Part shown: positions 4,909-23,049 of the stretch, in pieces
Numbering within the stretch: the first letter of the stretch is position 1
How the letters are laid out: each line of letters starts with the position of its first letter
Made by a program: the position numbers and the translations under genes
The notes under the pieces: generated by a model
What the model saw: the letters and a program-made list of their open reading frames with translations, nothing else
Told to the model about the DNA's origin: nothing
Databases searched by the model: none
Origin: Thermosulfuriphilus ammonigenes
Lineage (GTDB): Bacteria; Desulfobacterota; Thermodesulfobacteria; Thermodesulfobacteriales; ST65
Assembly (NCBI RefSeq): GCF_011207455.1
Contig: NZ_CP048877.1
Span: 488,576 to 552,575, forward strand
Direction: 5' to 3'
Length of the DNA stretch: 64,000 nucleotides

Positions 4909-5970
4909 TCAATCTAAGGCATACCTTACCATCGGAGCACGAAAGTAACTCCTTACTATCTCCGGCTGCCTCTGCGTGCTCATAAGATAGCTGCGTACAT
5001 TACCCTCCATCTCCTCCATGCTCCGCTTCCGGCGCCTCCCCCCCGCATTCGTCTTCACATCCTGGTTCAAATACTCATCCGGATTAAGCTCCGGACTGTA
5101 TCTCGGCAAATAATGCAGTTCCAACTCGTCCTCTTTGCCCTTCAACCACTCCTTAATCCTCTTTGCCCGATGCACACGGTGATTATCCACTATAAGATAA
5201 ATCTTCCGCCCCTTTTCTCGTGATCTTATCAGCCTTCTTAAAAATTCAAGAAAAACTTCTGTCGTAAATCTCTCCCTAAAAATCATAAACTTAAGCTTCC
5301 CCCGGTTGTTGATGGCAGAAATCATATTGAATCGAAATCTCTTGCCGCTCACCTCCACCACCGGTGTCTCTCCCCTCGGCGCCCAACTCCTCCCCGCTTG
5401 ATGATCTGACCTGATCCCTGTCTCATCTCCCCACCAAATCTCTGCCCCTTCCTCCTTGGCCCTCTTCCTTATCCGGGGATACTCCTTCTCAAGCCAGGCC
5501 TTTACTTCCTTCGGATTTCTTTCATAGGCCCGTTTCAAAGGCTTCTGCGGCGTGAAATTCCATCGCCTCAAATACCGGCCCACCGTCCATATCGAAAGCC
5601 TTATCCCAAACTTCCTCTCTATCAGTTGCCCCACCGCCTCCCTGGTCCAAAGGGAAAAGGGAAGCTTCAACTGATCAGGACAACGGTCCCGGATGATGCT
5701 ACAAATGGTAGCTGCTTGCCAGCCCAAAAGTTTTCCTCCCTTAGGACGTCCGCGAGGCTTGATTTTAAGGGCTTCCTCCCCACCTTGGCGATAAAGTTTT
5801 AGCCAGTAAGTCACAGTGGTTCTGGCTATTCCCAACATTTGGGCCACTTCTTCCTGGGTTTTTCCTTGTTCCAACACGGCGTGGACGGCTCTAAAACGCA
5901 AAGCTTCTTGAGCTTTGGGAGGAAGTTTACGTGCGTCTATTTTGGGAACTTTTGGAGGGCTAGAGTCCAT
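4909..5970 (-). CDS. IS630 family transposase
   Basis: 353-residue DDE transposase that cuts and pastes its own insertion sequence. The N-terminus carries a helix-turn-helix (about residues 35-60, TQEEVAQMLGIARTTVTYW) and a second winged-helix-like region (about 90-145). The RNase H-like core has D182 (WWGDETG), D262 (YLIVDNHRVH) and E299 (PRYSPELNPDE), the DDE triad of the family. Length is normal for IS630 and no frameshift is seen. The ATG at 5970 lies just inside the right inverted repeat and the stop just inside the left one. Confidence 0.93.
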   Translation of the reverse strand: MDSSPPKVPKIDARKLPPKAQEALRFRAVHAVLEQGKTQEEVAQMLGIARTTVTYWLKLYRQGGEEALKIKPRGRPKGGKLLGWQAATICSIIRDRCPDQLKLPFSLWTREAVGQLIERKFGIRLSIWTVGRYLRRWNFTPQKPLKRAYERNPKEVKAWLEKEYPRIRKRAKEEGAEIWWGDETGIRSDHQAGRSWAPRGETPVVEVSGKRFRFNMISAINNRGKLKFMIFRERFTTEVFLEFLRRLIRSREKGRKIYLIVDNHRVHRAKRIKEWLKGKEDELELHYLPRYSPELNPDEYLNQDVKTNAGGRRRKRSMEEMEGNVRSYLMSTQRQPEIVRSYFRAPMVRYALD

Positions 5971-6260: not shown

Positions 6261-6337
6261 GCCCCCGTAGCTCAGGAGGATAGAGCACGGGATTCCTAAT
6301 CCCGGAGTCGCAGGTTCGAATCCTGCCGGGGGCACCA
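6261..6337 (+). tRNA. tRNA-Arg(CCU)
   Basis: A full cloverleaf can be folded by eye: acceptor stem GCCCCCG/CGGGGGC, D arm GCTC...GAGC, anticodon stem CGGGA/TCCCG enclosing loop TTCCTAA (anticodon CCT), T arm GCAGG/CCTGC with loop TTCGAAT, discriminator A and an encoded CCA end at 6335-6337. The 3' 49 bases are repeated at 23298-23346, so this gene is the integration site of the 17-kb element and its 3' half is element-borne. The 5' flank holds a 9-bp stem hairpin (6071-6093) with no T run and no recognised gene between 6027 and 6260. Confidence 0.95.
6289..6337 (+). repeat. att direct repeat, left (tRNA side)
   Basis: 49 bases covering the anticodon arm to the CCA end of tRNA-Arg, identical to 23298-23346. 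The flanks differ (cac before and ata after here; gat before and taa after at the right copy), so these are the exact limits of identity and contain the crossover site. Confidence 0.92.
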
Positions 6338-6381: not shown

Positions 6382-6408
6382 TTTCCCCACCTATTCCCCA
6401 CCTGGAAG
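6382..6408 (+). repeat. Arm-type integrase site, left copy
   Basis: 27-bp sequence starting tttccccacctattccccac, itself two copies of TTCCCCACCT one base apart. It lies 45 bp inside the left att repeat and is repeated exactly, in the same orientation, at 23173-23199 near the right end. In an excised circle the two copies would flank attP, as arm sites for tyrosine integrases do. A looser pair, tcaagg(g)tttcagg, also occurs at 6344-6357 and 23252-23264. Confidence 0.7.
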
Positions 6409-7030: not shown

Positions 7031-7330
7031 GAGGCCTTTGCCTGGCAAAACCTCACCATCCGGGCCACCCTTTTGCTCATCGCCGTAACCAGTATCTTCC
7101 TCCTGCCCTATGCCGTCCTACTCCCAGTCCTGGCCAAGGAGTACTACGGCGTGGGGGCCAAAGGCTTTAGCTTTCTCATGGCGGTAAACGGTCTTGGGGG
7201 ACCTTTTCGGGGCGGTTTTTATGACGAGCATCGGCCCCCGCCTACCCAAGGACAAAAACATCCTGGTCAACCTCACCGCCCTGTGTGTGTTCTTGGCCTT
7301 CACGGCCCTGGCCTTCCTGAGTTTTCTAGG
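7031..7330 (+). pseudogene. MFS transporter fragment, frameshifted
   Basis: Translation from 7031 (EAFAWQNLTIRATLLLIAVT...) resembles the middle of an MFS_3/EntS-type exporter, with hydrophobic segments and GAKGFSFLMAVNGLG. The frame breaks at the G5 run near 7196-7200: after NGLG the sequence continues one frame over as DLFGAVFMTSIGPRLP and then another membrane helix (LTALCVFLAFTALAFL). One G fewer would restore it. Both the N-terminal and C-terminal parts of a normal transporter (about 400 residues) are missing. It is a relic, joined in frame at about 7330 to an unrelated ATPase fragment. Confidence 0.7.
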
Positions 7331-8347
7331 GCAGGATTGGGTGAGGACAAGCCCCGAAACATTTGGGACGGCCACGGCTAACCGGCTCCTGGCTCTTGGG
7401 TATTACTTCCGGGATCTCCCAGTCCTTTTTGATGATTTTTTCCCAGGATCGAACCAGGAGGAAAACCATCGCCTGTTTGAGACCCTGGATCGACTGATCC
7501 GGGTTACTGGTAATGCTTCAGAGCGGGGGCGCTTAAAGGCTAACTCCGCATTGGATCGTGAAAAAACCTTTGAAGCGGTCCCTGTCATAACCCTGGAGTT
7601 TCTACCGGTGCTCTCGGAAAGCTCCTTGAGCCGGGTTTTTGTCGTTCCCCATGTGAGGCCCGATCCCGAAGATTTACAGGCCCTCCAGGACCGAGCCGAG
7701 CCCCTTAATCATCTTGGGAGTCTCTGGGTTCGTTACCTCTCGGAGAAGGCCCCTGAGCTTCCTTGTTATCTCAAAGAGCAATTACGGGAGAAGTGGAAAA
7801 GCGCCCACTTTGAGGCGTTGCGGGAGCGTGAGCTATTCCGGGCCGTAGATAATTTTGCAATTTTGGACACTTCACTTACGGTTTTTCTCGGTTTTCTTGA
7901 TTCTCTTGGCCTGGACGCCAGGGACCCGGCGCAAGTCCTGGCCCTGGGCCTTAAGGAGATGCTTAATGCTTTCCTGGGCCGGGTCAGGGAGACTGATACG
8001 GTCGAACTTTTTTAGAGTCCTTGAAGGAGATTGTAGTTTCCGGTCAGGCGGTTATTCCGGCCAAAGAGGAATACCAAGAAGATCTCCGTAAGCCCGTTAT
8101 CGGTGTGCTGAGCGGTGGTGAGGTTTGGCTTTTCCCCCAGGCTACGGAGAAGGAACTAAACGCACACCTTGGCAAATTAAACCGGCCTCCGATTCGCTTG
8201 GGCAAGGGGTTTTACGGAGAGCTTAAGCGTCGAGGGTTGCTGGCCTGGGAAGTGTCCACCAAAGTCGTCAAGATCGGCGGAAGGAGTCAACGGGTGCTGG
8301 GGTTAAAGAGAGAGGCCCTGGAGGGAGAGGAAGATGTCCCATTTTGA
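7331..8347 (+). pseudogene. C-terminal part of a DUF927/primase-associated ATPase, broken
   Basis: After the MFS relic the frame continues without a stop into residues typical of the second half of DUF927-like plasmid/phage ATPases: TANRLLALGYYFRDLPVLFDDFFPGS, LIRVTGNASERGRL, VITLEFLP and LSRVFVV. The Walker A half is absent. Translation stops at TAG 8013-8015, but the next frame carries straight on (FLESLKEIVVSGQAVIPAK to 8347), so a -1 shift at a run of six T (8008-8013) has split it. Together these are the remains of an earlier replication helicase. A sequencing error in the T run or ribosomal slippage could explain the second break; neither explains the missing N-terminus. Confidence 0.65.
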
Positions 8348-8414: not shown

Positions 8415-8669
8415 GTGGAGGTGCGGGGCCAGCGTCGGAGGACAGAATGGGAAAGTGAAGTTAAGCATCTTCAAGAGGTAAGCGAAGGTTTGCCACCGGA
8501 GGCCAGGCGGCGGGTGATGGCCCTGGGGCTTGAGGCGGTGGCCCTGGATCTTGCCGCCAGGCACGGGGCCCCCGGATCGGACCCCTGGAGCTTTTGGGCA
8601 AGGTGTTACCACGGAGTTACGGACACCCTGGCTGATGCCTGGGATCTGGCCTATGCCTCGACACATTAG
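8415..8669 (+). CDS. Small hypothetical protein, Ala/Arg/Glu-rich
   Basis: 84 residues from GTG 8415 (the frame is closed upstream by TAA at 8400). No Shine-Dalgarno is obvious. The product (EWESEVKHLQEVSEGLPPEARRRVMALG...FWARCYHGVTDTLADAWDLAYA) looks helical and soluble; I recognise no family. It follows the broken ATPase on the same strand and may be a surviving partner or another relic. The 280 bases between it and the PIN gene hold no supported gene. Confidence 0.4.
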   Translation: MEVRGQRRRTEWESEVKHLQEVSEGLPPEARRRVMALGLEAVALDLAARHGAPGSDPWSFWARCYHGVTDTLADAWDLAYASTH

Positions 8670-8953
8670 TGGACGGGTCCTTCTGGGCAGGGTGGGCCGA
8701 AGGGTCCGTCCCCTGCGCCAAAAAAGGCGTTTTGAACTCGCGCGAAGCCGGCGCCACCGCCGGGGAAGCCCTCTCGAAGTCCCGAAAACCTAGGGAAACC
8801 AAGGCTTACAGCCTTTGAACTATCTCGGCTAAACGGCCATGGGGGTAAACCATGACCGAAAACGCAAGAAGAAGGTGTGAGGTTATGGAGAAGTCTTGTA
8901 GCCTAATATATTTTAGGCCAGAGATGAGCGAGATTCTTTCGAGCTGGGACGAA

Positions 8954-9427
8954 TTAACACCATGCTTTAAGCCGCTTATTTACTTCTTCTTTGGGCAACC
9001 AGCTATCCTTAGCCAAGATCTTTTTAAGAGCCTGACAAGCTACTTTAGGAGAAATCAGACCTCTTTTTAAGAACTGATCCAGGACCCATAAAATTCCATG
9101 ATAAGGAATATTGCAAGCCTTACAAAGTTTCCTCAGTTTACTGTCTCCGGTTAAAAGGATTACCTCCTTTTGAACAGTTAGCTCCTTAGCACACAAAAAG
9201 GCACTAGCATCGGCCAAAGAAAGGCTCCGGTGTTCAGCACGGAGCGCTAAAATCTCAGTTACATCTACAAACTCAAAAACTTCGGCCTCAAATTCGGGCA
9301 GTAAAGGCTCGTCAATTTCAAAAAGAACCAAGTCTGTTATTACGATTTTACCGAGATTACTAAGTAGAGCTGTTAGGCCGCTGTGGCATAAATCAATTAA
9401 AACCGATGCATCGAGGACCAGGATCAT
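8954..9427 (-). CDS. PIN-domain protein, putative toxin
   Basis: 157-residue PIN-fold ribonuclease candidate. Acidic active-site residues occupy the usual places: D6 (VLDASVL), E37 (LFEID), D73 (LADASAF) and D95 (LLTGDSKLRK). PIN toxins of this type cut tRNA or mRNA when freed from their antitoxin. Its ATG overlaps the end of the upstream XRE-ImmA gene by four bases (ATGA), so the two are translationally coupled and driven by one operator-bearing promoter. The C-terminal 60 residues (helical, Lys-rich) extend beyond the minimal PIN fold. Confidence 0.8.
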   Translation of the reverse strand: MILVLDASVLIDLCHSGLTALLSNLGKIVITDLVLFEIDEPLLPEFEAEVFEFVDVTEILALRAEHRSLSLADASAFLCAKELTVQKEVILLTGDSKLRKLCKACNIPYHGILWVLDQFLKRGLISPKVACQALKKILAKDSWLPKEEVNKRLKAWC

Positions 9428-10461
9428 CTACAGGGTAAATCTTCAACAGATGGAAGGTCAAGCAACTCTTTGGCCCTGAGCGGAGAGATAAAGCCTTCCT
9501 CTAAAGCCCTACACACAAGCCTTTTAAACCTCAAAGGTTCTTCCCGGGGGTATTCTGGTCCAGGTTCTCTCTTGTGCCATCCCTTGGCTCTTAGCATTTG
9601 ATAGAGACCTCTAAACCTTCTCTCGTTAATGATTCCTAGCTCCCTTGCCCGGTAGATTAAGGCCTGAACGCTTAGGCCATACTTGAGCTTGAGAAAAACC
9701 AACTCGCTTAACCCCATGGAAGCCTTTAACTCCCTGGCCGCTACCGCTTGGGGAATTAAAAAGGCCCCAGCAAACCGGAAACAAGCTTTCTCTTCTTCTA
9801 GGTGTTTATCTTTAATCCTCAAAACCAAATGTCCAAGCTCATGGGCCAGAGAAAACCTTAAACGGTCCCCAGGAAAAACTCTATTGGCTGCTATAACAGG
9901 GTTTCCGTTAGCCCAAAAAGCGAAAGCGCTACACTTCTCTGGCATCTCAAAAAGCCCTACCTTTATGCCCTTGTCCTCAAGCAGGGTAACCAAACTGGCA
10001 ATTGGAGCTAGCCCAAGGCCCCACCGATTTCTTAACTCTTCGGCGGCCCTTTCTACTTCTTCGTAAGTGGCCACTTCCCTACCGAAAGGTTCATACTCTA
10101 TGGACTCCCCAAGGAGATCTTCTATTTCGAGATAGTTCTCAAGCCAAGCTCTAACTCTTTCAAAAAGGGCTTCTTTTTCCTTTTTGGGAAGGCTTCTATG
10201 GGCCCGATATTCTATCGGGCTAAACTTGATCTTCTTCGGTGGCTTTAAGAAAAAGTCAGGGTTTAAGCCGCAAGCTCGGCTTATCTTGATGATAACTTGG
10301 GAGTTGGGAGCTATTAGCCCCCTTTCATATTTGGAAATAGCGGTAGGGCTGAGGCCAACTTCCTTGGCCAAAGCTCTTAGGCTAAGCCTACTTATTTTCC
10401 TTGCTCGCTTGATTCTTTCCCCTACCAGTTTAATGAGATCTTCCCTTTTTAAAGTCTTCAT
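9424..10461 (-). CDS. XRE-type HTH / ImmA-IrrE metallopeptidase fusion, putative antitoxin-regulator
   Basis: 345 residues. An XRE HTH occupies about residues 10-65 (LSLRALAKEVGLSPTAISKYERG). The middle carries an ImmA/IrrE (COG2856) zinc peptidase with HELGH at 207-211 and a downstream EEEKACFRFAGAFLIP segment that supplies the third ligand in this family. Such proteins repress their own operon and often pair with a toxin; the overlapping downstream PIN gene fits. The promoter in front carries an inverted repeat straddling its core elements (10462-10500), which suggests autoregulation. The alternative role, cleaving a repressor to induce the element, is also known for ImmA proteins. Confidence 0.85.
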   Translation of the reverse strand: MKTLKREDLIKLVGERIKRARKISRLSLRALAKEVGLSPTAISKYERGLIAPNSQVIIKISRACGLNPDFFLKPPKKIKFSPIEYRAHRSLPKKEKEALFERVRAWLENYLEIEDLLGESIEYEPFGREVATYEEVERAAEELRNRWGLGLAPIASLVTLLEDKGIKVGLFEMPEKCSAFAFWANGNPVIAANRVFPGDRLRFSLAHELGHLVLRIKDKHLEEEKACFRFAGAFLIPQAVAARELKASMGLSELVFLKLKYGLSVQALIYRARELGIINERRFRGLYQMLRAKGWHKREPGPEYPREEPLRFKRLVCRALEEGFISPLRAKELLDLPSVEDLPCR

Positions 10462-10526: not shown

Positions 10527-10697
10527 TTAACCTTTCCCCTGGCCCTCCTCGACTTCCTTCCCGTATTTGCGGAGGAGGTCTCGCATGGCCTCCTCGAGGA
10601 GGTCGTTTAATCGGCGGTTTTGCTCCACAGCCAGGTGCTTTAACTCCTTCAAGAGGTCTTGATCTAACCGAGTAGCAAACATTTTGCGTTCGCCCAT
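10527..10697 (-). CDS. Ribbon-helix-helix DNA-binding protein
   Basis: 56 residues (MGERKMFATRLDQDLLKELKHLAVEQNRRLNDLLEEAMRDLL) with the strand-helix-helix pattern of CopG/Arc-type repressors. I start it at ATG 10697, which has GGAGGGT 6-12 bases upstream; a further in-frame ATG at 10712 overlaps that site. It is divergent from the small-gene operon beginning at 10859, and the space between them contains four ATAGCTA repeats, likely operators for this protein. Confidence 0.8.
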   Translation of the reverse strand: MGERKMFATRLDQDLLKELKHLAVEQNRRLNDLLEEAMRDLLRKYGKEVEEGQGKG

Positions 10698-10720
10698 ATT
10701 TTTACCCTCCATTAAAAATT

Positions 10721-12020: not shown

Positions 12021-12275
12021 ATGGCGAGGACGAAAGCGGAGCTAAAGCGGGAGATTGAGGAAGCCTTTGGCCTGGTCAAGGGTTGGGCTAACATTGCCCG
12101 GCTTGTGGGCTGTAGCCGGAATACTCTCATGGCCAGGTGGAGAGAGTGGGGCTTGCCGATTGTCTTCCTGGGCGGGACTCAGAGAAAGACCCCGGCCATC
12201 TACCTGGACCATCTCCTCTTGTGGAGAAGCACCAAACTAGAGGAAACCTACCGGTCTGGGCTTAATCGGGCTTGA
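12021..12275 (+). CDS. HTH protein, putative regulator
   Basis: 84 residues. KGWANIARLVGCSRNTLMARWREWGLP (about 20-46) fits a helix-turn-helix of the Fis/homeodomain-like type found in small phage and plasmid regulators. No clear Shine-Dalgarno precedes ATG 12021, but a TATTAT box at 12000-12005 could make it leaderless from its own promoter. It follows the cysteine-rich gene by 27 bases. The 250 bases after it, up to the convergent HELGH gene, hold nothing I can support. Confidence 0.6.
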   Translation: MARTKAELKREIEEAFGLVKGWANIARLVGCSRNTLMARWREWGLPIVFLGGTQRKTPAIYLDHLLLWRSTKLEETYRSGLNRA

Positions 12276-12528: not shown

Positions 12529-13140
12529 TCACGCAGAACCGCCCGCCGCAGCCTTGTTTTTGTCGTAGCCCACCAGCTCAGCGATTAGGCGGTTTTCCTC
12601 CTTTGAACGAAACGGGCTCGGGAGCCCGGTCAACCAAACGGCTGTAGTATCGGCATGGACCTCCTGGAGCCAACCCTCCACCTTGCACTCCTCAAGGACG
12701 TGGCCTAGAAGGTGATGTCCAAGCTCATGAGCCAGGACGTAAGCCTTTACCTTCGGCTCGAGCCCGGCTTTGAGTAAAATGAGTCTGTTCTGTCCTTGTT
12801 TAGCGTGCCTAACCAACTTCCAAAAAATTTCCTTTCTGGCTAGATCTTGGTCTATTAAGTCAACCCCTGGCGGAGTTTGAATTTCCTCTCTAAGCTTTTT
12901 ACGAACCTTTTCTAAGGGACTGAGGGCAAGAGCCAGACCATGACAAGCGTTGAGGAGGACCTCGCACACTTCGAGCCCGCATTCATTTATCAGACCTTCC
13001 ACTTCCCTAAGTCCAAGAGGGACCTTGGAAAGGATCGGAAACTTGTAAAGTAAGGAGCCAATAAGGGCGAAGAAGTTTTCCCAAGACGGGTCTTGGATAT
13101 AGCGGCTTCTCATCGTTAAGTAGACGGCATTTACGTTCAT
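12529..13140 (-). CDS. ImmA/IrrE-like zinc metallopeptidase
   Basis: 203 residues from ATG 13140 with AGGTG upstream; a longer frame to 13233 would use a less likely start. HELGHHLLGH (about 138-147) is the zinc-binding helix and EVHADTTAVWL about 20 residues on would supply the third ligand. Unlike the other ImmA-type gene in this element there is no HTH domain. It lies 92 bases after a coiled-coil gene on the same strand, and the gap carries a GC-rich hairpin. The substrate is unknown; by analogy it may cleave a repressor or its neighbour. Confidence 0.7.
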   Translation of the reverse strand: MNVNAVYLTMRSRYIQDPSWENFFALIGSLLYKFPILSKVPLGLREVEGLINECGLEVCEVLLNACHGLALALSPLEKVRKKLREEIQTPPGVDLIDQDLARKEIFWKLVRHAKQGQNRLILLKAGLEPKVKAYVLAHELGHHLLGHVLEECKVEGWLQEVHADTTAVWLTGLPSPFRSKEENRLIAELVGYDKNKAAAGGSA

Positions 13141-13232
13141 AGATGCACCTCTTGCCGGTCTTGGCCTTTGGGCACGCCAGGTGTTTTTGTCAGGATAGGC
13201 CCGGTCCGTTTTAAGCGAACCGGGTCCGGACA

Positions 13233-13955
13233 TTACTTAAGAAGTCCCAGGGCCAAATCCACGGCCTCGATCTTACGGGCTTCGTCAAGGCTAGGGTCCA
13301 CCTTGTGGGCCAGAAAGTCGAGGCCTTCCTCCCTTAGTGCCTCATCTAAAGAAGGCCAGTATAGCCGGTACTCGAAACGTCCCGGGTTGACTTTCTGCAA
13401 AACCTCAACCTTGGCATGGGGGCGAGTCCAAGGCTGCTCCAAGAGGTTACCCAAAGCTTCTTCCGGTTTTTTGTCCCGCTTGTAGCCAAAGTCCTGCATA
13501 GCGAATTCCATGTTAGAAAGCCAATTGAGGCCCTGCTTTAAGATCGCATGGATCTTAGCGAGCTCTTGGGCTCTCTCGTTGTAACGCTCCAGCTCCCTTT
13601 TGGTGCGCTCAATCACCTTCTTCCGCAGCTCAAGATAAACTTCCACGCGGACACGCTGGAGCTCTTTGTGTTTCTCTTCAAGCCGCTCTCTCAAGCTCTC
13701 CAAGGCCAACCGGAGCCCTTCTAGCTCTAACTCATTAGACTCTATCCGCTTTCTCTTCTTCTCTGCTTCCTTCCGAGCATCTTCGGAGAGTTCTCCAAGG
13801 TTGATCTTGGCTAAGATTGCGCCGATCTCCTCCTTGAGGGTTCCGTTCTGCCCTTTGAGAGCCGCAGCCTTTTGCTCAAGATCTTGGATTTTGGCTTCGA
13901 TTTTCTCGATCTCACGCTGTATTTTCTCAAACTTCTTTTTGACTTTGATCTTCAT
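13233..13955 (-). CDS. Long coiled-coil protein
   Basis: 240 residues with an excellent ribosome-binding site (AGGAGGTG) before ATG 13955. Residues 1-135 are almost wholly charged heptads (EKIQREIEKIEAKIQDLEQK, RERLEEKHKELQRVRVEVY) predicting a long coiled coil, possibly hairpin-shaped because of a break near residue 70. The C-terminal 100 residues (NWLSNMEFAMQDFGYKRDKK, RFEYRLYWPSLDEALREEGL) form a separate globular part that I cannot assign. It precedes the HELGH peptidase gene and could be its sensor or target. Confidence 0.7.
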   Translation of the reverse strand: MKIKVKKKFEKIQREIEKIEAKIQDLEQKAAALKGQNGTLKEEIGAILAKINLGELSEDARKEAEKKRKRIESNELELEGLRLALESLRERLEEKHKELQRVRVEVYLELRKKVIERTKRELERYNERAQELAKIHAILKQGLNWLSNMEFAMQDFGYKRDKKPEEALGNLLEQPWTRPHAKVEVLQKVNPGRFEYRLYWPSLDEALREEGLDFLAHKVDPSLDEARKIEAVDLALGLLK

Positions 13956-14043: not shown

Positions 14044-15747
14044 TTAAGCAAGCGGTCCATGAGCCCCCCTCCTGATACCCTTTTTGAAGGCCCACTCGGC
14101 TATCGCCAGGGTTATAAGGTCCGAGGCCTCGCCCTTGGTTTTAGGCCTGGGCAAACCCCACCGCTCGCAAAACTCGACCTGCCTCTCCGAGGGGGGATAG
14201 TTCCTCCAGGAGGCCTCCGGCTTGTAAAGGGCCGCCGCTCCTTGGTCTCGGAGCACTCCGTTAGCCACACCAAAGGCCAGCTCGATATCCACCGGGCGGG
14301 AAGTGAGAGGCCGGATGCCTTTCCGCCCGATTAGGTAAGGCACGAAAAGCTCCCCTCTCCGGGTCCTATTGACCTGCCGGATGTAGAGAGTTCGTCCATC
14401 TCCCAGGCTTGCCGCCCAACCGTGCTCCCCTTTTGCCCAACAGAAAGCCGAAGGATCGAAGATCTGGCGCTCCTCCACCCCAAGGATCTGGGAAGCCAGG
14501 GCAAGGTCAAGCTGGACACTCTCACGGCTTCCCCTTCCTACGGCCTCTTCGAGCTCGACACGACGTTTGAATTTTGGATCAAGGTCCGCAATGGAGACCA
14601 GGCTGTGGCGGCTCGAATTGTCCACCAGGTCAATAACCAGGCAGTCCTTCTTTCCCGGGTAGAGCCTGAGCCCTCTCCCCACCATCTGCACGTATAGGGC
14701 CTTGCTTGCCGTAGGACGGGCCAGGAGAAGACAGTCCACCGCGGGGTCGTCAAACCCTTCAGTTAGCACCTGGCAGTTTGTGATGACTGGGATTTCACCC
14801 CGAGCGAAGGCCTTGAGCATGGCTCGACGCTCCTCAAGAGGTGTCTCTCCGGTCACGGTTTGAGCCTCTACCCCGTAGGCCCGAAAGGTCTCGGCCAGAT
14901 CGCAGGCGTGCTTGATGTCCACGCAAAAGGCTATGGCTTTGCGTCCCCGGGCCAGCTCAAGCCAGGTCTCGACGGCAAAACGGTTCCTCTCCGTGGTGTT
15001 CACTGTCTCCGCCAGCTGACTCACGGAGAAGTCCCCGGCCCGATAGTCGAACCATACTTCGGAGAGATCGCACCCGGTCCTGACCGCCCGGTAGTCAATC
15101 CCACACAGGAAGCCGTCCGCTATAGCCTCAAGGACGGAATACTCAAAGGCTACCTCCTCGAAGACCTCTCGGAGGCTCTCTCCGTCCTTGCGGTAGAGAG
15201 TCGCCGAAACCCCCAAGACCTTCATGGTGGGGTTAAGCTCAAAGAGCCGGTCAAGGGCCTTTCTGTAGGTGCTTGCCGCCGCATGGTGGGCCTCATCGAT
15301 CACGAAGAGATCAAAGCCCTGGGAGAGCCGGTCAAGCCGACGCCATAAGGTTTGAATAGAGGCCAGGACTATGGGACGATCAGGATCGAACCGCTCGGCC
15401 TTGATCACTACCGGCTCCGGAACCTCCGGCCACACCAGGGAAAGCTTTTCAATGGGCTGCAAGATCAGCTCATCCCGATGGGCCACGATGAGGACACGGC
15501 CTCCGGCTTCTACTACACCCCGAGCAAGGGAGAGGAAAACGATAGTCTTGCCACAACCCGTAGGGAGCGAAATCGCTACCGATTGCCGTCCGTCGATGTA
15601 GGCGCCCAAGATGCGCTCAAGAGCTCTGGTCTGATAGGGCCTCAAAGGCAGATCGCTTTTTGGCTCCACTAAGAGCCAGGGGAAGGCTTGACCTGTCCCG
15701 GCTTTTTGGACTACTTTGCTCAGAGTCTCAATTCCCGTCATATCCAT
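14044..15747 (-). CDS. DEAH-box SF2 DNA helicase
   Basis: 567 residues from ATG 15747 (GGAG just upstream; a longer frame to 15795 overlaps the previous gene). The helicase core has a Q-motif-like LRPYQTRALERI, Walker A LPTGCGKT (about 63-70), LFVIDEAHH, GVSATLYR, ITNCQVLTEGFDDPAVDCLL and motif VI QMVGRGLRLYPGK, the RAD25/UvrB-like arrangement. The C-terminus (about 400-567) is a less conserved domain with YPPSERQVEFCERWGLPRP, seen in phage and plasmid helicases. It probably works with the adjacent Prim-Pol protein in replicating the element. Confidence 0.88.
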   Translation of the reverse strand: MDMTGIETLSKVVQKAGTGQAFPWLLVEPKSDLPLRPYQTRALERILGAYIDGRQSVAISLPTGCGKTIVFLSLARGVVEAGGRVLIVAHRDELILQPIEKLSLVWPEVPEPVVIKAERFDPDRPIVLASIQTLWRRLDRLSQGFDLFVIDEAHHAAASTYRKALDRLFELNPTMKVLGVSATLYRKDGESLREVFEEVAFEYSVLEAIADGFLCGIDYRAVRTGCDLSEVWFDYRAGDFSVSQLAETVNTTERNRFAVETWLELARGRKAIAFCVDIKHACDLAETFRAYGVEAQTVTGETPLEERRAMLKAFARGEIPVITNCQVLTEGFDDPAVDCLLLARPTASKALYVQMVGRGLRLYPGKKDCLVIDLVDNSSRHSLVSIADLDPKFKRRVELEEAVGRGSRESVQLDLALASQILGVEERQIFDPSAFCWAKGEHGWAASLGDGRTLYIRQVNRTRRGELFVPYLIGRKGIRPLTSRPVDIELAFGVANGVLRDQGAAALYKPEASWRNYPPSERQVEFCERWGLPRPKTKGEASDLITLAIAEWAFKKGIRRGAHGPLA

Positions 15748-15755
15748 TCTCCAAG

Positions 15756-15782
15756 CCGTGGTCTTTGGGCCACGGTTTTTTA
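15756..15782 (+). terminator. Terminator-like hairpin facing against the replication genes
   Basis: Plus-strand CCGTGG, 8-base loop, CCACGG, then six T. It sits exactly between two minus-strand genes, so on the coding strand it is only a hairpin without a T run. It would stop plus-strand (antisense) transcription entering the Prim-Pol gene, or act as an RNA hairpin near the helicase start. Confidence 0.45.
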
Positions 15783-16025
15783 TTGCGTGACCCACCTCTC
15801 GCGCAGATCTTTGAAGGACACCTTGGGCTTTAGCCCCGTGCGCTTGTAAAAGCGTCGCATCTTCTTGACCGAGCCAACGCCTACAATGCGCCAGGAGCCG
15901 TCCGGCATCTTTTGCTCAATCAGGGGTTGGCCGGTTCGCTGGGCTACCCGGATGAAGGCTTGCTCCAGCTCCTCATCGGTGAGGTTAAGGCCAAACATGG
16001 ACAGAAAAGTTTTGGCATCAAACAT
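15780..16025 (-). CDS. Small hypothetical protein between replication genes
   Basis: 81 residues from ATG 16025, which overlaps the Prim-Pol stop and has GGAGGGT seven bases upstream. The sequence (FDAKTFLSMFGLNLTDEELEQAFIRVAQ..., GSVKKMRRFYKRTGL) resembles no family I can name; the Lys/Arg-rich end could bind nucleic acid. Its position between primase and helicase genes, with overlapping translation, suggests a replication accessory role. Confidence 0.65.
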   Translation of the reverse strand: MFDAKTFLSMFGLNLTDEELEQAFIRVAQRTGQPLIEQKMPDGSWRIVGVGSVKKMRRFYKRTGLKPKVSFKDLRERWVTQ

Positions 16026-19023
16026 CGCAAACCCTCCAAGCATCTTCATTGATTTCCAAGCCGATAGCCCAGCAAAACTCTTGGGCCGCCTCGATGTCCC
16101 CCAGGCCTCGTGTCCTTTGCAGGCCACCGGGGGTCCGAATCTGGACCTCGAAGAGAGGAAGGTCAGGATGAGCCTTCCGGAGGCGGGCAAGAAGCTTGGG
16201 CCACCACTTCCGGCCCGAGAAAAAAATCTCTTTATAGGGGGGCGGGACCCCCTTGGGATTCCCGGAATTTCCCATTTGTCCTTGAGGCAAGGGGTTCCCG
16301 GTTCCCTTTAAAGATCTCTTATAGGGGGGCAGGAACCCCTTTGCTTCCCTATTTCTGGGGACTTCCTGGGAAGTTTCGGGAGAAGCGAAGGGGTTCCCAA
16401 TGCCCTTTAAGAGAATCTCGACCTGCTCCCAAAAGGCCCTCACCTTCTCCGGATAAGCCTGCTCGATCCGCCGCCAGAGCTCCGCCCGGACTTCAAGGGG
16501 TGGGATCTCCTCCTTGCGCCCAATGCCCAAGAGCAGAGCGATCTCCCGCCAAACGAAGTAAAAAACCGCAACCCATAGCTCTAAAATTATCGTGCTCAGA
16601 TCCTGGGCTCCGCGGACCTCCTGAGGCTCGATTACCTCCCGAGGCCCACCAAGCCAGGGCTGGAAGGGCCAGCGAGGCGCAATGACAAGGACTTTCTTAC
16701 CGGAGAAGCGGACCGGGCGAATGCGGTGCGCCTCTTGCCAGGCTTCAGCCCTGGCCAGGAGATCGAGCCAGTCAGTCCATTCCTCTGCGGAGAGCCCGAG
16801 CGCAAGGGCCACGTCGTAAAAAGCGCCTGGAGAGGGCACCGGCAGGCCGAGGAGGATAACGGCATCGTAGCTTTCAAATTCGTTTGTGCCTCTACTATCT
16901 GTTCCGAAATGGTGACTAACTACAATTCGACGGCCGTCTTGATCAACAGCCTTTTCGACTTTAGATTTTATCGTCTGGTGGCAGAAAACTAGAATTTTCT
17001 CAGCTTTAATGGCCTTAAGTGCCTCCTTCAAAGCCTTTATGGCTGTTTTTTGTCCTTTTTGCTGGCTAACCGCCGTTTTACTCACGCTCCGTCTGAGCCA
17101 GGCCGTCCGCACTTCGAGAGGCACCCGAATATCCAAGATCTGCATTCCCGGCCTTTTAAGAGCCCGTTCCACCACCCGGGAGCAGGCCGTGGCATCTAGC
17201 ACGACCAGGCGGCCACGCCACTTGTCTGGGACGGGGTTGACCACGCGGCGGAGTTCGATCGGTCTAGCGGGGTTCTTGCGGGCTACCAGGTAGGCCTGCC
17301 CCTGGCCCACGACCTCCTCGAGCCAGCGGAAAGCGTTAAGATTTATCCCCTTGCGGAAAAGCGCGGGTTTCCGGTAAGTTTTGAAGACCTGGGTGATTTC
17401 GTCTCGGATAACCGGGCCAAGCTCCGTGAGGTCAAGGTCAAGCCACTCGGCGAGGTTTTTTTTACCCGCCCAGGGTCCGAACTCTACCGGCCTGGCATAA
17501 ATCCGACCTTCTAAAAGCTTTTTGCCATTGGTGGCCCGGTGAAGTTCATCTCCAAGCTTGAGCACCGCCTCCGCCAGCCTCATTGTAGCCGAGTCCTCCC
17601 GGAAAATCGCCCGAAGGGTGCGGAGGCCGTCTAGAGGGCATGACACCACTTCAACGAGGCCGTGGGGTTCTTCGTCGAGAATCCAACACTTAGCCTTCCT
17701 CAAAAAATCCTTAATCAGATGGCAGGCTAGCTTATGAGAGGCGAAAAACAGTCCTCTTTCGCGGTTTATCCCCTCAAACTGCCGCAAAAACTCACACTTC
17801 TCGCTAAAAGCGGCGTTTTTCGGGTTATGAGGGCAGGTAGGGCAGATGATCTCTCCTGAATCGTAGCCCAAATCGTGCGCGCGCTTCACCTCTTCCCATT
17901 TCAAGCAAGTCCGTGCGTTGCGGCCTTCAAACACTACGACCGGCTCCGCCGTTAAAGCCCGGGCCTCCTCGCCTAGCTCTCGAGCGAGGCGAAGGGTAGG
18001 CACGGACCAAACCACTGGCCTTGGCCCTTCTCGGCAGAGCCATTCAAGGGTTGTCCGGCTCTTCCCCACTCCCGGGAGCACCGTGACGATGAGGTCACCT
18101 CCCCCGCGCAAGACCTCAAGGATGAGGCTCCGGGCCTCCCTTACAGAGGCCGCGGGGACTTCATGGGGAGGGGCCTCTTCGCCTTCTTCAACCTCGAGAT
18201 TCTCGACGAGATCCTCCCGCCCCAGTTCCCTTAACCAGGCCGCCAGAGGGAGCCCGCCCTGTTCCTTAGCGGCAGGGCAGGTGGTGCGGAAATCAAAAAG
18301 ACGGCCCGTGTCAGTCATCACCCAGGGATTGCCCTTCGACTTCCCGCACAGGGGGCAGGCCTTAAGTCGCCAGGCCGTCCGGTCTCCGAGAGAGATCTCT
18401 TTGACTGCCTCCGCTCCCACCTCAGCCAGAATTTCCCCCAAAGCCTCCCGAGTAAGCTTGCGACCGGGCTTTGGGAACTTCACCGTCCCCACGGCCCGGG
18501 CAAGCTCTTTGAGACGCTGTTTTTCCCGGATTGCATCGAGGACGAATTTCGGCAGAGGAGGAATCTCCGACACGTCCCAGGGAGCCAGGAGCCACGTATA
18601 GCGGAAGTTCGGATCTTTCCGGTGTTGCGTGGGGGGCAGGGGCACCAGCGAACCGGTGCCCTTCACTTCAACGAGGCCGATCCCTGGCAGGTCGAGGACG
18701 GTGGTAGGAATCTCCTCCTGCCCCGCGGAGAAGTAGAAATGAAAGCCACGCCTGGTCTTCGTGAACGGCGTTGTGAAGTGAATTTTCGTGTGCAACCGCT
18801 CCGCAACCCTCGGGTCGTCAATATCAAGAACCACGATCCCCGAAGGCCGCCCCGCGAGGAGGCCCAGGCCATGAGGAGGGACCGGAAAGAGAACCTCCCA
18901 CCTTCGCCATTCCTCCCGCCCCGGAGGCCTTTCACAAAACTGCCGCCAGGGAAAGGGAGGACGGACCTCTCCTGGAAGGAGAGGGGTCACGGGCCATTTC
19001 AGGTCAAGATAGCGCCCTACCAT
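16018..19023 (-). CDS. Prim-Pol (bifunctional primase/polymerase) and helicase fusion, replication protein
   Basis: 1001 residues. The N-terminal archaeo-eukaryotic Prim-Pol domain has LDIDDP (D67, D69), TRRGFHFYF (H95) and VEVKGTGSLVPLPPTQH. A zinc-binding segment follows (CPLCGKSKGNPW at 223-234 with CPAA at 249). The ATPase part begins with Walker A LPGVGKS (316-322) and includes an acidic box CWILDEEPH. Such fusions prime and unwind DNA for plasmids, phages and satellites. The stop overlaps the next gene and the start is three bases after the excisionase-like gene, so this is one replication operon. The C-terminal 120 residues are low complexity (repeated PPYK and GNP motifs). Confidence 0.85.
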   Translation of the reverse strand: MVGRYLDLKWPVTPLLPGEVRPPFPWRQFCERPPGREEWRRWEVLFPVPPHGLGLLAGRPSGIVVLDIDDPRVAERLHTKIHFTTPFTKTRRGFHFYFSAGQEEIPTTVLDLPGIGLVEVKGTGSLVPLPPTQHRKDPNFRYTWLLAPWDVSEIPPLPKFVLDAIREKQRLKELARAVGTVKFPKPGRKLTREALGEILAEVGAEAVKEISLGDRTAWRLKACPLCGKSKGNPWVMTDTGRLFDFRTTCPAAKEQGGLPLAAWLRELGREDLVENLEVEEGEEAPPHEVPAASVREARSLILEVLRGGGDLIVTVLPGVGKSRTTLEWLCREGPRPVVWSVPTLRLARELGEEARALTAEPVVVFEGRNARTCLKWEEVKRAHDLGYDSGEIICPTCPHNPKNAAFSEKCEFLRQFEGINRERGLFFASHKLACHLIKDFLRKAKCWILDEEPHGLVEVVSCPLDGLRTLRAIFREDSATMRLAEAVLKLGDELHRATNGKKLLEGRIYARPVEFGPWAGKKNLAEWLDLDLTELGPVIRDEITQVFKTYRKPALFRKGINLNAFRWLEEVVGQGQAYLVARKNPARPIELRRVVNPVPDKWRGRLVVLDATACSRVVERALKRPGMQILDIRVPLEVRTAWLRRSVSKTAVSQQKGQKTAIKALKEALKAIKAEKILVFCHQTIKSKVEKAVDQDGRRIVVSHHFGTDSRGTNEFESYDAVILLGLPVPSPGAFYDVALALGLSAEEWTDWLDLLARAEAWQEAHRIRPVRFSGKKVLVIAPRWPFQPWLGGPREVIEPQEVRGAQDLSTIILELWVAVFYFVWREIALLLGIGRKEEIPPLEVRAELWRRIEQAYPEKVRAFWEQVEILLKGIGNPFASPETSQEVPRNREAKGFLPPYKRSLKGTGNPLPQGQMGNSGNPKGVPPPYKEIFFSGRKWWPKLLARLRKAHPDLPLFEVQIRTPGGLQRTRGLGDIEAAQEFCWAIGLEINEDAWRVCDV

Positions 19024-19026
19024 CTC

Positions 19027-19218
19027 TTAACATCCGGAAGTCTTCACCTCTCCCTCGGCGAGCCACCTTTCGAGGTCCTCTACCCGGTAGAAAACCCGCC
19101 GGCCTTTTTTGAAAAACCGAGGTCCTCGCCCCTGACTCCGAAGGTTCGCAAGAGTCTTGGGCGAGAGGCCGGGAAACAGCTTAGACACCTCGGTAGCAGC
19201 GATGAAAAGCGGTTTCAT
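19027..19218 (-). CDS. Excisionase-like helix-turn-helix protein
   Basis: 63 residues (MKPLFIAATEVSKLFPGLSP..., GPRFFKKGRRVFYRVEDLER) of the MerR/AlpA-type HTH_17 fold used by excisionases and element regulators. The start at 19218 has GGGAGG seven bases upstream. It is the first gene of the replication operon, just ahead of the Prim-Pol gene, so it may regulate replication, act as recombination directionality factor, or both. It is 2.6 kb from the integrase. Confidence 0.75.
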   Translation of the reverse strand: MKPLFIAATEVSKLFPGLSPKTLANLRSQGRGPRFFKKGRRVFYRVEDLERWLAEGEVKTSGC

Positions 19219-19334
19219 TTCTTCCTCCCGTAGGCTTTTTTGAGTTCTTGGGGGGAAAGAATAAGACAAAGGCCCTTCACAAAAAGGCCGAAAAATTGCG
19301 AAAATTTGGCCCCTTAAGAGGGCAAGGGAGGGGC

Positions 19335-21083
19335 TTAAGGGAAGAGTTTGCGGCCCTTAATTACCTTTTTGTTGATCTCCCCGGGGTCAAGAGGCTTAAG
19401 GGCCTCTCTCTTTTCCGGAGCTTTTTCGGCAAGGTAGGAAAGGAGGGCTTTTACACTCAGAACCCCCGGTCCGATGAGGTTCAAAACCTTGATGCTCTCT
19501 TTAATAATCCAATCCATTACCTCATTGTGACTTCTAGGGATCAGATATCCCGGCTTCATACGGGCCAGCTTTTGGCGCTTTTCGTACCATTCCCGATCAT
19601 AAGTCCATTTCTTGAGCCAGTCCTTCACCCACGGGCATTCTCCCCACAATGGCTCCCAAGCCAGTAGCCGAGCAAGAGCGTCCTTGTCTCCTCCTCGGGC
19701 CAGCTGAACATCTCTTTCAAGACTGGCTCCCGGAAGCTTGAGTTTGAGCTTGCCCACCTTTTTGCTTTTCCCCCGAAACCTTTGAGCATAGTTTTTTAGC
19801 TCGCATTTAAGGAAAAGCAGGGCTTCCCTTTTCAGACATTGGAACCAGACAATCTGACAGCAAATGCGAGCTAAAAATACGCCTATACGGAACCTGAAGT
19901 CGTAGAGTTCCTCTTTCAAAGAGTCCAGGGTCTCAGGAGGGAGGAATTTTTGGGCGATCTCTAAAGCAACGCTTTCATGGAAACTAAGGTGCCCTAAGAT
20001 AAGGTGCCCTAAGAGATTAAGGCTGCCTTCTCTTTCAGCCCAGGAATCGACGACTTTCCTTTGAAATGGATCTACCTGTCGATATAATTCGTAAAACTTT
20101 TGCAAGAGAGTGTTCTTTCTCGGTTTCCTTTCTGAGAGCTTGATTTTGAGATCGAAAATCTTCCATAAGTCGGAGAAGGTAGGAAATTCGGCCACGATTT
20201 CTTGAAAAACGCGTTCTGCTCTAAAGCTCAAGATGTCCCACAAGTAAGGATCTATTTCAAAGGCCAAGCGGACGGCCTCAAGAAGATCCTCCCAGGGTTC
20301 TAAGAATTTGGTCTCCAGGCATTCGGCCTCAAGCATATTTTGGGGCAGCCCTTCTTTTACCAGGCTTTTAAGGGCTTGGTCGCCGAAGTAGTCGCTCAAG
20401 TCTTTGGCAAAAGAGATGAGATTCCAAAAAAGGCGCTTAAGTTCTATTCGAACCAGGTGGGGGAGATAGCCTTTTGCCTCCCAAGAAGCCTCAAGCAAGT
20501 TAAGTAGCCTGATTGATGAGTGAGCGCAAACATCGAAGAGATCCATTTGGGGCTTAAAGAGGATTTTTGAGCCACAATCCGGGCATTTTTGGGTTAGCTC
20601 TCCCATACTCAGGAAGTTTTCCCGAGCAAGCTTTCGGAGTTCCTCTCCTTCAAGAAACAAGTCAAAAGTTCCTCGGCATTTCGGGCATCGTGCGTAAAAA
20701 GAAATGGAGTAATGGCCATCAGGATGCCATGAGGAAGATTCTCCCAGGGCAAACCGTTTTGCGTTAAGAATTTCACTTTGTGCCCAGCTGTTCCAATTCT
20801 CCTCGGCCATTTGTAAGGACTGTTTGGCCTTAGCCTGATACTCCTCGCTTTTGAGCCTGGCATTTTCCAAAGCAGGCGGGTCTTTCTCTTGGCTGAGAAG
20901 CCTCCACACTTCAAGACGAATTCGTTCTTTGAGAGCGGCTAAAGCTTCCTCTTCAGACTCGCCTTTCCCAAAACAAGTGGGGAAGATTGAGGAATAGGCC
21001 ACGACTTCCTTGGTGGGCAGTTGAATGAAAGAAGCCTTTTCTAAGACTCTGGCCAGATAGTCATTAAGGGTAAGGGCTTCCAT
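19335..21083 (-). CDS. HicB-like domain fused to zinc ribbon and long helical region
   Basis: 582 residues. Residues 1-65 (SFIQLPTKEVVAYSSIFPTC, KGESEEEALAALKERIRLEV) have the HicB/UPF0150 pattern normally found in antitoxins that fold on a partial RNase H scaffold. Residues 128-175 contain two CxxC pairs (C133/C136, C167/C170), a zinc ribbon. The remaining 400 residues are mostly helical with no motif I know. No HicA toxin gene (about 60-80 residues, double-stranded-RNA-binding fold) is visible on either side, so this is not an ordinary HicAB pair. It stands alone between the VapBC-like pair and the excisionase gene. Confidence 0.7.
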   Translation of the reverse strand: MEALTLNDYLARVLEKASFIQLPTKEVVAYSSIFPTCFGKGESEEEALAALKERIRLEVWRLLSQEKDPPALENARLKSEEYQAKAKQSLQMAEENWNSWAQSEILNAKRFALGESSSWHPDGHYSISFYARCPKCRGTFDLFLEGEELRKLARENFLSMGELTQKCPDCGSKILFKPQMDLFDVCAHSSIRLLNLLEASWEAKGYLPHLVRIELKRLFWNLISFAKDLSDYFGDQALKSLVKEGLPQNMLEAECLETKFLEPWEDLLEAVRLAFEIDPYLWDILSFRAERVFQEIVAEFPTFSDLWKIFDLKIKLSERKPRKNTLLQKFYELYRQVDPFQRKVVDSWAEREGSLNLLGHLILGHLSFHESVALEIAQKFLPPETLDSLKEELYDFRFRIGVFLARICCQIVWFQCLKREALLFLKCELKNYAQRFRGKSKKVGKLKLKLPGASLERDVQLARGGDKDALARLLAWEPLWGECPWVKDWLKKWTYDREWYEKRQKLARMKPGYLIPRSHNEVMDWIIKESIKVLNLIGPGVLSVKALLSYLAEKAPEKREALKPLDPGEINKKVIKGRKLFP

Positions 21084-21204
21084 TTGACCTCCCTCATGCG
21101 GTCTCCCTCGTTTAAGAAAGACCGGGCTCCCAGGCGGGCGAGGGTCACCCGCTTTTCGGGGCGCGCAACCCTAGAGAGCCCGGATTTTGGTTGCTTAGAC
21201 TCGC

Positions 21205-21618
21205 TCATCTTAACCAAACCAAACTCAAAGACTCCTTGCCCTCCAGATGTTTGATCTCCGGGTCTCCAGTTACCAAAGCGGCCTCTCTGAGAAGACTCAG
21301 AGCCACCGCAAAAGCATCCGCATAGGAAAGAGGGTAACGGGCCTTGATCTCGGCAGCCCTCCAGATTTCCTCCTCGGTGGGGAGGAGAAAGTTAATAGGA
21401 CTACCTAAAAGGGTCTGGATAACCTTCTGAGCTTTGGCAAGGCTGTGCTTTTTGGCCGTAATGTAAAAGACTTCACCCGCATTTATCAGGGACATAAAAA
21501 TGGAAATCTCCCCTCTTTCGGCCCTCTCAAGGAGCTCTTGAACTCTGGAGGCAGCGGGCTCATCGCAAAGCCAGGCAATGACTGCCCAGCTATCAAAGAC
21601 CAAACTTCTTCCGCTCAC
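21205..21618 (-). CDS. vapC: VapC-like PIN-domain toxin
   Basis: 137 residues with the four PIN acidic residues D9 (VFDSWAVIAWL), E49 (NAGEVFY), D101 (YADAFAVALS) and D119 (VTGDPE). Length is typical for VapC. The gene overlaps the upstream antitoxin gene by 26 bases. It probably cleaves tRNA when unopposed and stabilises the element, lying between the integrase and the HicB-fusion gene. Confidence 0.85.
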   Translation of the reverse strand: MSGRSLVFDSWAVIAWLCDEPAASRVQELLERAERGEISIFMSLINAGEVFYITAKKHSLAKAQKVIQTLLGSPINFLLPTEEEIWRAAEIKARYPLSYADAFAVALSLLREAALVTGDPEIKHLEGKESLSLVWLR

Positions 21619-21855: not shown

Positions 21856-23049
21856 TTAACCCCCTAGTTTTTCGGTATAAGACACTACTTTTCCGGTCAT
21901 GGCCTGGAGGGCCACCCTTTCGATCTCTTTGATGGCCTGCCTCTGAGCTTCAGCGGCAAGGTGAGCATAGCGTTCGGTCATGAGCATGGTCTTGTGGCCG
22001 AGAAGCTCTTTTACCGTGAAAAGCGGAGTTCCGTTCATAACTAGCCAGCTGGCAAAGGTGTGGCGGAGGGTGTGGAAGCAGACACGCATCCTGTGGTCTG
22101 CCACGCCCTCGTTGAAACCGAGTTCCTGGACTACTTCCCAAAATACTCTAGAGACCTTTTTGATCTTCTGTCCTTTACGATCTTTAAATACCAGTTCTGA
22201 GGGTTCTCCGGGTGTCTTGGCCATGAAAAGGCGCTTGACCTCATCGGTCATATAAGCGACGCGCGTAGTATTGTTTTTAGGGTCCCGGATGTAGATAAGG
22301 CCACGGGCCATGTCTATGTCGGCCCAGGTGAGGTTGAAGATCTCTCCGGCCCTCATTCCCGTGTGGAGAGAGAGAAGGCAAATCTCATATAACTGGCGAC
22401 TTCTCTTCTTTACCGCCTCAAGGAGAAGACTAGCTTCTTCAGGGGTGAGAAAACGTAGGCGGCGATTATCTTTCCGAGGAGGTTTGACTTTGCTTGCAGG
22501 GTTATCGCCTCGAAAAAGCCCCCACTCTTTGGCCCGATTGAAGGCCATGCGAACCACGGCCAGGGCGTATTCCGTAGTCCTCTCAGCCAGACCTTTTTTC
22601 CGCATATCGCTCTTGATGCGTTCCAGATCGAAAGGAGAGATGTCCTTTAAGGTTTTATCTCCTATGACTGGGTCGATGTAGCGTCGGAAAAGCTCCTCTT
22701 CACGCCGGTAGGATTCCCAAGCTTTGTTCTCTTTGGCCCAAGGCAGGTAACGCTTTCGCATAAACTGGGCAAAGGTGACGGCCTCTTTGCGTTTTTTGTG
22801 GATAGGTATAGGTTCCTCTCCTAGACGGACGGTCCTTAATCTTTCAGCCCGGATTTGCGCAGCATAGGCGGCTGTGATTCCCTCAGAGGCCCAACCGATC
22901 TTTTCTTCAATGAGCTTACCGTTTAAGTTCTTATAGCGGATATAGAAGCACTTATCAGGCTTCCCATCTGGCGTTTTACGGGTCTCGCTCAGGTAAGCCC
23001 TTACTCCAGGGAATTTTTTGAAGGTTTCATACTTTTTGGGTTTCGCCAT
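21856..23049 (-). CDS. Tyrosine recombinase (integrase) of the element
   Basis: 397 residues. An N-terminal arm-binding region, a SAM-like core-binding domain (about 92-190) and the catalytic domain are present. The R-H-R-H-Y residues are R233 (HTGMRAGEI), H326 and R329 (HTLRH), H352 (LLGHKT) and Y361 (ERYAH). It catalyses integration and excision between the 49-bp att repeats. It lies 250 bases from the right att copy rather than beside the intact tRNA. GGAG precedes ATG 23049, and TTCCCCACCT (23084-23093) just upstream may let the integrase bind its own promoter. Confidence 0.95.
   Translation of the reverse strand: MAKPKKYETFKKFPGVRAYLSETRKTPDGKPDKCFYIRYKNLNGKLIEEKIGWASEGITAAYAAQIRAERLRTVRLGEEPIPIHKKRKEAVTFAQFMRKRYLPWAKENKAWESYRREEELFRRYIDPVIGDKTLKDISPFDLERIKSDMRKKGLAERTTEYALAVVRMAFNRAKEWGLFRGDNPASKVKPPRKDNRRLRFLTPEEASLLLEAVKKRSRQLYEICLLSLHTGMRAGEIFNLTWADIDMARGLIYIRDPKNNTTRVAYMTDEVKRLFMAKTPGEPSELVFKDRKGQKIKKVSRVFWEVVQELGFNEGVADHRMRVCFHTLRHTFASWLVMNGTPLFTVKELLGHKTMLMTERYAHLAAEAQRQAIKEIERVALQAMTGKVVSYTEKLGG

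Follow-up and report, generated by a model that had tools for sequence, protein, structure and literature searches.

The gene pair and the element that carries it

The window, by which we mean the whole stretch of 64,000 nucleotides analysed here, corresponds to positions 488576-552575 of a single-contig genome of 2.29 Mb (G000 in our set; relatives are likewise given by number where they have to be told apart). A gene for a coiled-coil protein and, immediately 3' of it, the listed frame of an M78 (ImmA/IrrE-type) peptidase (12529-13233) lie on the minus strand, in agreement with the preliminary description, which had presented them as a same-strand pair with the coiled-coil gene first. We re-placed the start of the peptidase gene at 13140, because the start of its homologue in G021 aligns there and a ribosome-binding site (GAGGTG) precedes the ATG; the opening 31 codons of the listed frame are intergenic gap, and 92 nt separate the two genes. 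The features of the pair and of the surrounding element are as follows.

6289-6337 (+): attL, the 3' part of tRNA-Arg(CCT), 49 bp
6382-6408 (+): 27-bp direct repeat within the left element end, possible integrase arm site
12529-13140 (-): HTH-less M78 peptidase (pep1), 203 aa, HELGH at residues 138-142
13188-13232 (-): RNA hairpin just 3' of the coiled-coil stop codon, z -2.5
13233-13955 (-): coiled-coil protein, 240 aa, predicted helices and a C-terminal part
14044-15795 (-): RadD-like superfamily 2 helicase, directly upstream of the coiled-coil gene (85% identical in G021, 84% in G003)
16018-19023 (-): Prim-Pol replication protein (PF09250), with a 63% identical homologue in G003
19027-19269 (-): HTH_17 regulator ahead of the prim-pol gene (35.6 bits, cut-off 27)
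21109-21181 (-): int-alpA RNA (RF02996; 46.2 bits, gathering score 35.8)
21856-23049 (-): tyrosine integrase, beside attR
23173-23199 (+): 27-bp direct repeat within the right element end, possible integrase arm site
23298-23346 (+): attR, a perfect copy of the 49 bp of attL

The att repeats enclose 17,009 bp, measured repeat to repeat, and both genes lie within this 17.0-kb element, so that the setting in a mobile element claimed earlier holds. Similar 30-bp repeats occur near the ends of the G003 element. The integrase, the int-alpA RNA, the HTH_17 regulator, the prim-pol, the helicase, the coiled coil and the peptidase are all encoded on the minus strand, and the last two close the replication gene block on its downstream side. 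The int-alpA RNA has the integrase side of the element on one flank and the replication genes on the other, and was absent at the gathering score from the other four loci searched. The HTH_17 regulator matched no other Pfam family at E 0.1, AlpA and MerR included; in our reading it is AlpA-like. Within the operon, intrinsic terminators and sigma-70 promoters were no more frequent than in shuffled sequences, and the hairpin after the coiled-coil stop codon, together with a different, G+C-rich hairpin at the same place in G021 (z -1.35), is only suggestive.

Judged from its genes, the element appears satellite-like, and it resembles the PICI-type satellites as outlined in PMC6092414 and PMC13376191. 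The likeness consists in att repeats in a tRNA gene, an integrase, an HTH regulator and a primase, and the combination of PICI-like size, att repeats, integrase and primase was found in the window (17.0 kb), in G021 (14.6 kb, with a 47-bp repeat in tRNA-Ala(CGC)) and in G003 (11.9 kb, with a 49-bp repeat in tRNA-Arg(TCT)), whereas the best repeat at the G010 locus was 16 bp, which is no clear att repeat. Genes resembling the terminase small subunit (TerS) are present in the relatives, namely in G021 (phrog_57, E 1.9e-18), about 190 nt past pep1 on the same strand, and in G003 (phrog_2538, E 3.7e-8). Unlike PICI-type satellites, the window element combines a prim-pol with a RadD-like helicase, and no TerS was recognised among the window proteins scanned. 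No virion gene was recognised among the element proteins scanned, and no helper prophage was identified, since the three virion families used as queries, PF03237 for terminase, PF05065 for capsid and PF04860 for portal, had no match in the whole host genome.

Near the integrase gene, the element also carries a PIN-domain toxin-like gene (21205-21618 (-); PF01850, 64.6 bits).

Properties of the two proteins

The HExxH motif (HELGH in the window) and a following ExxA motif (E160), whose glutamate we take to be the third metal ligand, as in other M78 proteins, are present in all five rows of the peptidase family, of which those of G010 and G035 are almost identical. The window peptidase exceeded the Pfam M78 cut-off of 22 bits only just (22.7 bits), and its relatives scored 25.1, 21.8 and 17.8 bits, the latter two being the two G021 peptidases, which fall under the cut-off. 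A structural model of the peptidase (pLDDT 77) was closest among solved structures to IrrE (3dte; VIA-align Z 8.2, rmsd 3.1, 104 aligned residues), followed by CapP (7t5t; Z 7.0, rmsd 3.8, 117 aligned residues, 23% identity), Z values that the tool grades as middling. Foldseek gave no match to the PDB at E <=0.001 (the best, 0.044, was PprI) and one match among viral structures, an IrrE protein (9.2e-4). No HTH family matched the peptidase, as expected from its first characterisation as an HTH-less HELGH protein, and its PADLOC matches to M78 entries were all weak (capP, E 0.005). By homology, the peptidase is probably a selective zinc protease that acts inside the cell, as ImmA and IrrE do. 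According to PMC6872733, ImmA and MpaR are M78 proteases that cut the repressors of mobile elements, and according to PMC10904395, the substrates of PprI and CapP are DdrO and CapH, respectively, with stimulation by single-stranded DNA in both cases.

The most similar M78 proteases of known systems each share features with the window peptidase and differ from it in others. Like ImmA of ICEBs1 and MpaR of the Listeria monocin element (M78, DUF955, COG2856), it lacks an HTH domain, has HExxH and is carried by a mobile element. Unlike them, it has no adjacent XRE repressor gene: its neighbours are the coiled-coil gene upstream and, downstream on the other strand, a small HTH gene which is not XRE by Pfam. 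A second peptidase in a related operon, a position after the replication genes and the absence from sister elements are further differences. With CapP of the CapP-CapH pair, which regulates CBASS, it shares a related predicted fold and an HTH-less peptidase core, although there is no CapH-like neighbour, and capH was absent from the best 25 of the 32 PADLOC matches of the coiled-coil protein. Apart from capP and capH, no CBASS name appeared among the matches listed for 10 proteins of the window, nine of which the element encodes. IrrE/PprI of Deinococcus is the top fold neighbour; however, the 203 residues of the window peptidase leave no space for a GAF-like domain, and no DdrO-like repressor was seen alongside.

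The capP and capH matches of the element belong to a second M78 gene at 9424-10461, which encodes an HTH-M78 fusion (PADLOC RmrA E 2.7e-55, capP 2e-12, capH 1.2e-7; phrog_2439). It overlaps a PIN/DUF3368-like gene (the two together spanning 8954-10461) that scored under the Pfam cut-offs and matched PDC-S70 in PADLOC (E 2e-9), an arrangement like the pairs of COG2856-Xre and PIN genes reported in PMC2701414.

For the coiled-coil protein, AlphaFold2 predicted helices at residues 3-52 and 59-155 from an alignment of two sequences only, with mean pLDDT values in ten-residue blocks of 82-97 over residues 11-130, followed by 70 and 57. Counting L, I, V, M, F and A as hydrophobic in the best of the seven registers, a figure given without a shuffle control, the heptad a and d positions of residues 3-52 were hydrophobic in 93% of cases in the window and 86% in the G021 homologue (49% identical overall), compared with only 52% and 48% for residues 59-130. 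The distinct C-terminal domain of the preliminary description is present, as a segment from about 156 to 240 with 41 of 84 aligned residues identical in G021, but the fold predicted for this segment has block pLDDT values below 50.

Matches of the coiled-coil protein in Pfam, NCBIfam, PHROGs and PADLOC indicated generic coiled-coil similarity only. We read in this way its matches to JetC (PADLOC, E 1e-8), to an SMC-related protein (NCBIfam, E 1e-6; 27.7 bits, cut-off 300) and to a phage minor head protein (PHROG, E 0.006), and none of these was retained as an identification; LmuB was a further PADLOC match of the coiled-coil type. The best Pfam match, bZIP_1 (18.2 bits, cut-off 27.6), is likewise a coiled-coil match, and no DNA-binding family scored above its Pfam cut-off. 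The structural search returned nothing specific, with no viral match at E <=0.001.

Relatives and the probable loss of a second peptidase

Relatives of the helicase (E up to 1e-60) were found in four of the 41 genomes of the order (G000, G021, G003 and G029, the G029 locus lying at a contig end). The coiled-coil gene follows the helicase in two of the four, G000 and G021, and other frames take its place in G003 and G029, two genomes in which neither the coiled coil nor the peptidase had a match anywhere; module remnants 3' of these two helicase genes were not clearly above shuffled sequences (best score 16, maximum 15 in 60 shuffles). Because these sister elements have neither gene, the coiled coil and the peptidase are accessory cargo. 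The window and G021 have the same order of helicase, coiled coil and peptidase despite different integrases, primases and tRNA sites, and their junctions between helicase and coiled coil are homologous (score 38-39, maximum of 60 shuffles 13).

The coiled-coil protein was matched in three of 99 genomes, and its C-terminal half in two of 395 genomes of the phylum. One of the three matches, in G017, was weak (E 4.4e-4, with one internal stop) and was taken as coiled-coil noise; G017 was not among the matches of the C-terminal query, although it may lie outside that sample of 395 genomes. Full-length members of the peptidase family occur in four of the 41 genomes of the order: G000, G021 (two copies), G010 and G035. 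A fifth genome, G026, gave a weak match that by eye is an ordinary M78 gene beside an HTH gene. With the peptidase profile, 18 of the 395 genomes of the phylum matched, near-whole in G000, G021 and G010 and partially in the other 15, whose loci contain an HExxH ORF in 14 cases (the exception being L033) and were set aside, by eye, as HTH-M78 fusions or other HExxH proteins. Viral contigs yielded no family member, whether the query was one of the single proteins, either alignment, the helicase, pep2 or the peptidase of G010, and neither did tblastn against phages and plasmids; these scans detect close relatives. What did match among the viral contigs was limited to generic M78 proteins and distant helicases that lack the module. 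Among the matches listed in a wider scan of genome contigs (593 stretches), there were two generic M78 loci.

The coiled-coil gene lies between helicase and peptidase in both genomes with a clear match. Since the nearly identical peptidase regions of G010 and G035 have no coiled-coil gene, the partnership is not obligatory for the peptidase family. Over these very few loci, the coiled coil thus goes with a peptidase, and not the reverse. The pairing proposed originally is therefore upheld from the side of the coiled coil, and the finding named there as its refutation, that homologues are rarely found together, bites halfway, for the peptidases of G010 and G035.

The order in G021 is helicase, coiled coil, pep2, pep1 and the TerS-like gene. 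The window peptidase is 63% identical to G021 pep1 and 29% to pep2, and the gap between the two window genes contains a stretch that resembles the end of pep2.

13142-13195 (-): probable scar, in which about 54 nt align locally with the 3' end of pep2 in G021

This match (score 33, against a maximum of 18 in 2000 block shuffles) is the best in the 19.9-kb G021 locus and corresponds to 46 identical bases among 53 aligned, as worked out from the score. Because the gap retains this stretch, the window pair is most likely, though not proven to be, a reduced form of an operon of coiled coil, pep2 and pep1: the common ancestor would have held both peptidases, and the window lineage would have lost most of pep2. 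Alternatively, pep2 was gained in the G021 lineage by insertion of a divergent gene, its 3' tail being formed from the old gap. This is less simple, since pep1 and pep2 (29%) are much further apart than the two copies of pep1 (63%). If pep2 was lost from the window lineage, the module may be in decay there.

A short stretch at 8669-8818 (+) is similar in translation to a small frame found where pep1 ends in G021 (L009:10371-10676 (-); 42.6% over 47 aa), and is possibly a repeat rather than a gene.

Substitution rates between the window and G021 were estimated by the Nei-Gojobori method, the helicase being compared without its first 33 window codons. The values of pN and pS were 0.352 and 0.801 for the coiled coil (pS saturated), 0.218 and 0.607 for pep1, and 0.073 and 0.461 for the helicase, with dN of 0.475, 0.258 and 0.077, respectively. 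With pN below pS in all three comparisons, the coiled coil and the peptidase have the appearance of genuine genes under constraint, with the reservation that pS of the coiled coil is saturated. For the helicase, a more recent exchange is possible.

Possible roles of the module

We tentatively favour, with a probability of roughly 0.35, a role as an accessory, regulated protease that is controlled or targeted by its coiled-coil partner and acts on a phage or host factor during replication of the element. The peptidase would cut one specific protein, and the coiled coil would dock, restrain or target it (or both proteases of the fuller set). Because other elements of the family do without the module, its target would more likely belong to a helper phage, a competing phage or the host than be the core repressor of the element itself. 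Its action would coincide with replication of the element and consist in interference or in manipulation of a helper. An accessory role is preferred because no gene for a DNA-binding repressor adjoins the window peptidase and sister elements lack the module; the HExxH and ExxA motifs in the five peptidase rows, the nearest folds (IrrE and CapP), pN below pS in both genes and the gene order shared by the window and G021 are also in its favour. Points against it are the G010 and G035 peptidases, which stand without a coiled coil, the possible decay of the module, the lack of matches to the three virion families in the host genome, the two G021 peptidases under the M78 cut-off and the small number of clear coiled-coil loci, namely two. 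The TerS-like neighbour in G021 resembles the slot of interference and packaging genes outlined for PICIs in PMC6092414. The M78 proteases described in PMC6872733 (MpaR, ImmA) and PMC10904395 (PprI, CapP) cut a regulatory protein, a precedent that also counts against an accessory role, as these regulators are DNA-binding repressors that are often encoded alongside.

The same precedent leads to the rather unlikely explanation that the peptidase is an ImmA-type antirepressor, which would cleave the element repressor and lock in excision and replication, with the coiled coil modulating it. ImmA and MpaR are a precedent for HTH-less M78 proteases in mobile elements (PMC6872733), prophages use ImmA-ImmR switches as indicated in PMC12637031, and the element encodes candidate regulators, an Arc-like RHH protein (10527-10712) and a small HTH protein (12021-12275), the latter present in all three peptidase-bearing elements that could be read. 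However, no XRE repressor adjoins the peptidase, the peptidase itself lies within the gene block that would need derepression, and it is missing from the sister elements of G003 and G029. The RHH protein also occurs in G003, a genome without the peptidase, and the HTH protein has relatives without it in G029, G032, G040 (with an internal stop) and G015 (weak); its matches in seven of the 41 genomes, several of them lacking the peptidase, weaken it as a substrate. An addiction module with the peptidase as toxin and the coiled coil as antitoxin appears highly improbable. Many antitoxin genes come first, as the coiled-coil gene does. COG2856 was once predicted to be the toxin of Xre-COG2856 pairs (PMC2701414), but the coiled-coil protein has no DNA-binding family above the Pfam cut-off, the peptidase stands without it in G010 and G035, and one of two peptidases was seemingly lost in the window lineage.

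A role in phage defence, in which the coiled coil would sense infection and activate the protease, or would be cut into an effector, so that the phage or the cell is stopped, is possible but unproven, and we consider it unlikely; the word sensor, used for such pairs in the preliminary description, is a guess for this protein. Phage satellites carry antiviral genes (PMC9122126), and the coiled coil is strongly divergent between the elements in comparison with pep1 and the helicase. Since synonymous divergence is also unequal (pS 0.80, 0.61 and 0.46), this divergence is not simply readable as an arms race and may reflect age, and the PADLOC matches, weak ones to M78 entries for the peptidase and JetC and LmuB for its partner, as well as the narrow distribution within what was searched, argue against defence. 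M78 proteases are not known to act on capsid proteins, and we likewise give very little credence to capsid redirection, in which the helical protein would mimic a helper scaffold and the protease would trim scaffold or capsid. The TerS-like gene nearby on the same strand in G021 and the mainly alpha-helical nature of the redirecting proteins CpmB and Rcm, as described in PMC12409344, speak for it, whereas the structural search of the coiled coil without a viral match and the window proteins scanned, among which no TerS was recognised, speak against it.

A sharper form of the favoured accessory role, in which a coiled-coil adaptor would aim one or two M78 proteases at a protein of a helper or competitor phage as a satellite interference system, is quite doubtful. 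If true, it would mean that an ImmA-type protease was freed from repressor cleavage and became a weapon or a hijacking tool. An M78 protease with a coiled coil and a paralogous second protease in a satellite-like accessory region would broaden the uses of this family, and coiled coil, pep2 and pep1 make a set of three genes that is compact and open to experiment; should the peptidase prove to be an antirepressor whose neighbour is merely odd, it would be an ordinary variant. The earlier remark that no known system with both genes was evident agrees with our searches, as none is named in Pfam, NCBIfam, PHROGs or PADLOC, and an M78 peptidase with a coiled-coil partner was undescribed in the titles and abstract openings that our search wording retrieved. 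We regard the module less as a system of a new kind than as a variant on the M78 theme, carried by elements that have been little studied.

Other genes of the window may be mentioned here. Within the element, a 582-aa protein (19335-21083 (-)) had no more than weak matches, to zinc ribbons in Pfam and NCBIfam and to unknowns in PHROGs, and none in PADLOC, and overlapping short ORFs near the left end (7073-8015) look by eye like a broken membrane-transporter gene. Outside it, a 1607-aa helicase resembling DruE of Druantia (27-4850 (+); PADLOC E 8.6e-89) is adjoined by a DDE transposase gene (DDE_3; 4909-5970).
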